DNA of 23,921 nucleotides, taken from Mycobacterium sp. 050128 (lineage in GTDB: Bacteria > Actinomycetota > Actinomycetes > Mycobacteriales > Mycobacteriaceae). The notes beneath the pieces were generated by a model. It searched no databases and was not told where the DNA came from. It saw only the letters and a list, made by a program, of their open reading frames with translations. Location of the stretch: the NCBI RefSeq assembly GCF_036409155.1, contig NZ_JAZGLW010000011.1, positions 1 to 23,921 of the forward strand, in the 5' to 3' direction. Shown one piece after another: positions 12,799-13,890 of the stretch (positions are counted from its first letter, which is position 1; the number at the start of each line of letters is the position of its first letter). The translations under genes were made by a program, and so were the position numbers.

Positions 12799-13890
12799 TT
12801 AGGTGTTGGCGGGCGTGGTGGTGCCTGCGCCGCGGCGGCGAGCCAGGACGAGGTCGTGGCGCTCGACCGGGAGGGTGGGTTCGTCAAGGCCTTCGATCAC
12901 GAAGCCAGCGTCGGTGATCATCGCCCGATCGGCGTGGCCGGGCTGTCCTTGGCTGGTGAGGTAGTCGCCGAGAAACATCGAATTGGCCAGGTGCAAGGCC
13001 AGTGGTTGCAGGGTGCGCAGATGTATTTCGCGGCCGCCCGCGACGCGAACTTCGATGTCGGGGAAGGCGAACCGGAACATCGCCAGGATGCGCAGGCAGC
13101 GTTGCGGAGTCAGTTCCCAATGCCCACCCAATGGGGTGCCCTCGAACGGGATAAGGAAGTTCACCGGCACCGAATCGGGCTCGAGTTCACGCAACGCCAG
13201 TGCGACATCGACAATGTCAGCATCGGATTCACCCATCCCGACGATCGCCCCCGAGCACGGCGATAGCCCAGCAGTTTTCGCTTTGCCCACGGTGGCGGCC
13301 CGGTCGTCAAACGTGTGGGTTGAGCAGATCCGCGCGTAGTTGTCGGCGCTGGTGTTGAGGTTGTAGGCATCGGCGCCCGCCTCGCGCAGCCGCTCGGCTT
13401 GCCCCTGCTTGAGCAGCCCCAGGCAGACACACACCTCCACGTGCGGCGCGGAGGTTTTGATCGCGGCGATCGTGTCGGCGACACGATCGATATCACGATC
13501 GCCGGGCCCGCGGCCGGCGGCAACCAGGCAGATGCGTTTGGCGCCGGCATCGATCGCGCACTGCGCGTGCCGGGCGGCCTCGTCGGTGTTGATCCACGAG
13601 TACTTGAGGATTTCAGCGCTCGACCCGAGCCGTTGCGAGCAATAGCCGCAATCCTCCGGGCACATCCCAGATTTCATGTTCACCAAGTAGTTCAGCTTGA
13701 CCCGCCGGCCGAAAAACCTGCGGCGCACCCGTGCCGCAGCGGCGACCACATCGAGCAGATCGCCATCACCGCTGGCCAACACCGCCAGCAAATCATCACG
13801 ATCGACACGCCGCCCCTGCAACGCCATGCCGGTGATCGCCGACAATCGCTGCCCGAACCCTGTATCCGGCACCGACGCTGGTTCATGCAC
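12799..13890 (-). CDS. bioB: biotin synthase-like radical SAM enzyme, Bacillus type
   Basis: A 363-residue radical SAM protein. Biotin synthase inserts sulfur into dethiobiotin using a [4Fe-4S] cluster and a sacrificial [2Fe-2S] cluster. The CPEDCGYC motif gives C77, C81 and C84 for the first cluster; C121, C154, C212 and R287 (GGREIH) match the second cluster's ligands. The text (VKLNYLVNMKSGMCPE, PCSGAIVGMGE, SVPVNFLIPFEGTPL, NSMFLGDYLT) follows Bacillus-type BioB rather than the main mycobacterial BioB (Rv1589). One departure: where BioB normally reads YNHN followed by LDTS or LNTS, this one reads YNLNTS (176-181), two residues short. GTG start at 13890 follows GGGAGAA. It leads an operon with two flavin hydroxylases and no other bio genes, so it may be an extra or repurposed BioB. 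Confidence 0.85.
   Translation of the reverse strand: MHEPASVPDTGFGQRLSAITGMALQGRRVDRDDLLAVLASGDGDLLDVVAAAARVRRRFFGRRVKLNYLVNMKSGMCPEDCGYCSQRLGSSAEILKYSWINTDEAARHAQCAIDAGAKRICLVAAGRGPGDRDIDRVADTIAAIKTSAPHVEVCVCLGLLKQGQAERLREAGADAYNLNTSADNYARICSTHTFDDRAATVGKAKTAGLSPCSGAIVGMGESDADIVDVALALRELEPDSVPVNFLIPFEGTPLGGHWELTPQRCLRILAMFRFAFPDIEVRVAGGREIHLRTLQPLALHLANSMFLGDYLTSQGQPGHADRAMITDAGFVIEGLDEPTLPVERHDLVLARRRGAGTTTPANT

Follow-up and report, generated by a model that had tools for sequence, protein, structure and literature searches.

The window analysed here, a stretch of 23,921 bases from Mycobacterium sp. 050128, is the entire contig NZ_JAZGLW010000011.1 (contig C11 of a 6.73 Mb draft genome in 52 contigs), and it carries an accessory copy of the biotin synthase gene bioB whose product is two residues short in its active-site segment. 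We put at roughly 0.8 the probability that this gene encodes a dispensable spare BioB on a plasmid-like contig that was damaged by replication slippage and most likely no longer makes biotin. The gene and the affected segment lie at the following positions:

12799..13890, minus strand: accessory bioB, encoding a radical SAM protein of 363 aa with a type I-like ligand set (assigned by TIGR00433 and alignment A1)
13348..13365, minus strand (read from 13365 to 13348): YNLNTS segment, residues 176–181, shorter by two residues than its counterpart in every relative examined, the difference being a single copy of a 6-bp unit that near relatives carry in tandem

The open reading frame (ORF) starts with GTG and runs for 363 codons to a stop, with no frameshift or premature stop and a single in-frame deletion at the motif. 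Its product scores 360.4 bits against TIGR00433, above the cut-off of 225. An earlier sequence-only reading of this DNA had reported that all of the cluster ligands are readable, and the alignment bears this out: CPEDCGYC supplies the radical SAM cysteines C77, C81 and C84 of the CxxxCxxC motif that is invariant in A1, and C121, C154, C212 and R287 are all present and align with Cys97, Cys128, Cys188 and Arg260 of E. coli BioB, an equivalence taken from conserved columns and position, as E. coli BioB itself is not in A1. These four E. coli residues are described as the [2Fe-2S] ligands in PMC11099021. Set against the type II biotin synthases of anaerobes, which have a different auxiliary cluster, the protein appears to carry the complete type I ligand set. 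It is a BioB by descent, but we stop short of classing it as a functional biotin synthase because the defining active-site segment, YNHN(L/I)xTS, is not full length.

Where close relatives have YNHNLNTS the window protein has YNLNTS, and the loss of exactly two residues in frame is as the sequence-only reading had described it. In E. coli BioB the YNHN segment contacts dethiobiotin and AdoMet. All 27 relatives in alignment A3 have the His of this segment and the Asn after it. None of the 74 other BioB loci that cover the segment in tblastn alignments shares the shortened form, a count made up of 0/45 in a first set and 0/29 in a second. The first set had 46 matched loci besides the window's own, one of which (L047) does not cover the segment, and its 45 include the genome's own second BioB; 22 of the 29 loci in the second set are of the distant main mycobacterial type, and several of the 74 are the same species sampled through two collections. 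One clade copy (G057:C198) lies outside this count. The pattern with the deletion was likewise not found in viral contigs, and a literature search on the YNHN motif and its residues gave no pertinent report. The idea of a conserved short motif marking a new subfamily was rejected, since none of the 74 loci has the deletion, and the same count answers in the negative, for the loci searched, the earlier question whether the deletion is conserved.

The second residue of the motif does vary without any change in length, being Ser in ten loci and Asp in one (L054). The ten loci in which Ser replaces the first Asn (L007, L020–L025 and L027–L029) form a YSHNLNT subgroup from Embleya, Nocardia, Yinghuangia, Actinomadura, Saccharopolyspora and Pseudonocardia; its segment has the usual length, and it is therefore no parallel to the deletion.

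The nucleotide sequence around the motif offers a simple route to the loss. The window has one 6-mer unit at this site, against two in its relatives from M. triplex (L008), M. colombiense (L011), M. vulneris (L012) and an M. intracellulare plasmid (L003). When whole genes were searched for perfect tandem 6-mers in five cases, the motif repeat was the only one in the coding sequences of L008, L011 and L003, and L012 had the motif repeat and one other; L010 had two, neither of them at the motif. Across 33 clade loci, in which the search pattern caught the motif in 28 and missed it in five, a perfect tandem 6-mer was present at the motif segment in 14 of the 28 matched. Loss of one repeat unit by replication slippage would be the simplest account of these patterns.

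The genome is not short of a biotin synthase. Two loci lie above the TIGR00433 cut-off, and the second, at C2:647380-648333, has an intact motif (YNHNLET). Directly 3' of it is a gene for BsaP (NF052237, 85 bits, cut-off 39), and at a distance of some 4.5 kb there is a bioD (TIGR00347, 87.6 bits, cut-off 83.3). The sequence-only reading had asked whether such a canonical copy exists, and one does, with its BsaP. The same reading had noted that no other biotin genes lie near the accessory copy, and a scan of 17 of the 89 listed window ORFs recognised none. Neither NCBIfam nor Pfam gave a BsaP match in these 17, a set that does not include ORFs of BsaP size. The accessory protein is 36% identical to the genome's main BioB in A1. 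Because an intact BsaP-type BioB is encoded elsewhere in the genome, the accessory bioB is probably dispensable for biotin.

These findings fit a short sequence of events. A horizontally spread accessory bioB would have arrived on a plasmid-like contig; replication slippage would then have removed one unit of the 6-bp tandem repeat and with it two residues of the active-site segment, presumably in a recent event by which biotin synthesis by this copy was lost; and the loss would have been tolerated in a genome that retains its usual BsaP-type BioB. The deletion itself, its uniqueness within the search, the tandem repeat in near relatives and the intact second BioB with BsaP are observed; we infer the slippage mechanism, the loss of activity and the recency of the event. 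The sequence-only reading had offered a non-functional copy as one of two explanations, and this one gains support from the private deletion at a tandem 6-mer site, the lost invariant His, a lower AlphaFold2 confidence and the intact BioB with BsaP.

Outside the motif the gene looks well kept. Of 124 clade-invariant columns (invariant among the other 23 rows used) the window protein differs at one, the lost His, and other clade rows differ at 0–9. The pairwise ratio of nonsynonymous to synonymous substitution rates (dN/dS) between the window and 11 relatives is 0.104–0.181, compared with 0.085–0.184 among the 14 pairs of relatives listed. Decay of the gene as a whole was rejected on these grounds, the dN/dS being like that of relatives and only one of 124 invariant columns changed. 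In AlphaFold2 models, the mean predicted local distance difference test score (pLDDT) over residues 171–200, taken ten at a time, is 75, 67 and 78 for the window protein against 96, 93 and 94 for the M. triplex relative.

Several observations weigh against a dead copy made by slippage. The frame is open and every cluster ligand is kept, and the TIGR00433 bit score equals that of the genome's canonical BioB. The lesion is either recent or in a protein still under constraint, and dN/dS does not tell the two apart. The fall in pLDDT is wider than the site, with residues 71–80, 91–130 and 201–250 also lower and residues 281–300 higher, and because it is not limited to the deletion we count the model confidence as weak evidence. 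Half of the 28 matched clade loci have no tandem 6-mer at the motif. Copies with the deletion may also occur beyond the loci searched. Finally, removing two residues from a strand leaves the in/out pattern of the others unchanged, and the segment still ends in Asn-Leu-Asn-Thr-Ser; the window BioB may thus retain some activity. A rival proposal is that the deletion is tolerated, with the strand register shifted by two and biotin still made, perhaps more slowly. We regard this as distinctly unlikely, given that no relative among the 27 in A3 has any other residue at the motif His and Asn, that local AlphaFold2 confidence is lower and that no locus of the 74 has a shorter segment.

An error of sequencing or assembly, in which a tandem 6-mer collapsed in the draft, would also produce a change of exactly one unit of a repeat present in near relatives, and a genome in 52 contigs invites the suspicion; a 12-bp repeat is, however, much shorter than any usual read, and the reading frame is preserved, which makes such an artefact very unlikely. 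Hardly credible is the other explanation of the sequence-only reading, a neofunctionalised radical SAM enzyme whose shortened pocket accepts another substrate and is tied to the operon's flavin monooxygenases, for although no biotin gene was found among the window ORFs scanned and the monooxygenase FMO1 is a conserved neighbour, the deletion is in no relative examined, no compensating change was seen elsewhere in the protein in the invariant-column comparison, and all other FMO1-linked copies examined have a full-length YNHNLNTS or YDHNLNTS, so that the deletion is not what links bioB to FMO1.

The closest proteins to the accessory BioB in A1, at 84–87% identity, are those of M. triplex, M. 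colombiense, M. vulneris and the M. intracellulare plasmid, and the M. arosiense protein is 87% identical. Identity is 79–87% to the other mycobacterial accessory copies and 46–54% to copies from Bacillota. The earlier description of the protein as of Bacillus rather than mycobacterial type thus stands only as a contrast with the main BioB (36%) and gives way before the mycobacterial accessory copies. Relatives of the gene are found on the M. intracellulare plasmids NZ_CP023152 and NZ_CP012886, and its distribution in the genus is patchy, with nine places in 7 of 296 other genomes at 71–88% identity and the next match at 37%. The clade is scattered over the Actinomycetota in varying contexts: in Streptomyces KN37 its bioB lies beside bioF/bioA/bioD, and in L023 beside a class-III aminotransferase gene. 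At L010:4294-7092 the accessory bioB is directly 3' of a gene for a carboxyl transferase, a biotin-dependent enzyme family. An M. lentiflavum plasmid matches 22% of the window contig at about 93%. The matched sequence falls into two pieces, both within positions 152 to 18562, and takes in a kinase gene; the two ends of the contig match plasmid DNA in which IS3 and IS256 transposases are annotated. By these matches the contig looks plasmid-derived.

Two genes for monooxygenases dependent on flavin adenine dinucleotide (FAD) follow the accessory bioB:

11103..12761, minus strand: FMO1, FAD-dependent aromatic-hydroxylase-like monooxygenase of 552 aa, 37 bp after bioB
9586..11076, minus strand: FMO2, second FAD-dependent monooxygenase, 26 bp after FMO1

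The best NCBIfam match of FMO1, NF004780, is below its cut-off (357.9 bits against 445), and FMO2 matches NF005303 (PRK06834) at 825.6 bits with a cut-off of 625. A close FMO1 (E <= 1e-120) is found in 7 of 297 genus genomes including the window's, and in all six of the others it is directly 3' of an accessory bioB, although at least four of the six look to be the same species as L008, L009, L011 and L012, so that the sets are not independent. The same arrangement is seen on both M. intracellulare plasmids and in M. triplex, M. arosiense, M. colombiense and M. vulneris. The only genes common to all seven loci compared (window, L003, L004, L008, L012, L100 and L101), using a rough gene call and flanks of unequal length, are bioB and FMO1, which apparently form a mobile two-gene unit. 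The association is not universal, since within the available flanks L010, L013 and L014 have an accessory bioB without FMO1. The FMO2 family is widespread (95/297 genus genomes at E <= 1e-150); FMO2 follows FMO1 in L008, L009 and L011; in L003 it is on the opposite strand, and L004 carries a fragment of it. Genes of MDMPI type are near bioB in L003, L004 and L012. No description of the bioB-FMO1 module was found in the open-licence literature.

Upstream of bioB is a further shared feature, probably a promoter or operator:

14016..14062, minus strand: conserved element with CTTA repeats, lying 125 bp upstream of the bioB start

This element of about 47 bases is kept in 8 of 11 aligned upstream regions (window, L003, L008, L011, L013, L014, L100 and L101) and is not conserved in L004, L010 and L012. 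The full pattern, at up to three mismatches, occurs once in the window's genome; a shorter pattern, at up to two, occurs in 21 of 148 genus genomes including the window's, against 0/148 for the reversed control. Downstream of it in 15 saved loci (the window, L113 and L115–L127, with 5 of the 21 outside the examined set) were 12 genes for short-chain dehydrogenases/reductases (SDR), one accessory bioB, one gene for an MDMPI_N-domain protein and one ORF without a Pfam match, the start of which is FAD-binding-like by eye. One SDR was typed from a 150-aa piece (NF005868, 214 bits, cut-off 162) and the other 11 were assigned by visible similarity. An SDR fragment searched against the genome that contains the window gave no match at E <= 1e-30, a search with no positive control that shows little. 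The pattern of neighbours suggests that the element marks a regulon in which the accessory bioB-FMO1 pair would sit alongside oxidoreductases and thiol-dependent enzymes.

In the match in the window's genome the first three CTTA repeats are, by eye, 11 bp apart and the fourth 9 bp. Promoters of Streptomyces antibiotic regulatory proteins (SARP) have repeats 11 bp apart and 8 bp to a TANNNT-like hexamer, according to PMC10936776. SARP-type control was considered: the spacing of the first three repeats would fit, but the distance from the repeats to a TANNNT-like hexamer is a misfit with the 8 bp of SARP promoters. A sigma-70 consensus scan found nothing, the window gave no Rfam match that attained the family's gathering threshold, and the open-licence literature gave no description of the element. 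Putting the module and element together, one might picture a mobile bioB-FMO1 unit under a conserved mycobacterial promoter element that supplies a BsaP-independent replacement BioB and a flavin hydroxylase acting on a BioB-directed inhibitor or biotin-like compound, within a regulon that also takes in SDR, a mycothiol-dependent isomerase-like protein and other oxidoreductases, the BioB half having been lost here by slippage with FMO1 and FMO2 left open. As a whole we think this picture improbable, if a little less so than a tolerated deletion.

Other genes of the window include a TnpB-like gene (20487-21656, plus strand; OrfB_IS605 with a Cas12f1-like TNB domain), similar to genes on several mycobacterial plasmids, and two related tandem serine/threonine kinase-like genes (893-2974 and 3009-5075, plus strand). 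On the minus strand are a TetR-type regulator gene followed by a leucine carboxyl methyltransferase-like gene (18773-20385; TIGR00027 at 58.8 bits, below the cut-off of 93.55) and a helix-turn-helix (HTH) gene adjoining an ORF without a Pfam match (16002-16800). This ORF has a 46% identical counterpart near bioB-FMO1 in L101 (8792-9304), which matches a nucleotidyltransferase family just under its cut-off and is preceded by a small ORF that is HTH-like by eye; the window pair is possibly of toxin-antitoxin type.

The two-residue deletion is most likely a private lesion rather than the mark of a new enzyme class, and the annotation 'bioB' hides a probably dead copy. A more interesting lead than the deletion is the accessory BioB/FAD-monooxygenase module, with its shared promoter element, in non-tuberculous mycobacteria and their plasmids.

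Structure comparisons of the window BioB listed BioB, HydE, PylB and others, and similarity to families beyond that listing is possible. The protein resembles E. coli type I BioB (PDB 1R30) in fold, radical SAM CxxxCxxC and the Cys/Cys/Cys/Arg ligand set named in PMC11099021, and differs by the two missing YNHN residues and by having no biotin operon around it. A further parallel, by description only, is MdbC, the second 'BioB' of a Streptomyces antimetabolite cluster, which accompanies biotin-related specialised metabolism; its authors suggest in PMC13336041 that it may have a role in self-resistance too. No biosynthetic cluster was identified in the window. The nearest counterparts are the copies of M. 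intracellulare, M. triplex, M. arosiense, M. colombiense and M. vulneris, which are 79–87% identical with FMO1 directly downstream and, unlike the window copy, have YNHNLNTS at full length. According to PMC11099021, BsaP is required by the BioB proteins of M. tuberculosis and M. smegmatis, in which Ala occupies the position of the Cys128 ligand of E. coli. These proteins share family and genus with the window protein, whose own genome also encodes a BioB of this kind; the window protein is 36% identical and retains C154 where they have Ala, and because C154 is kept it resembles, by sequence, the BsaP-independent type. Whether spare BioB copies of this kind work without BsaP is a testable question, and one worth asking because in mycobacteria BioB is the target of an inhibitor, acidomycin (PMC11099021).
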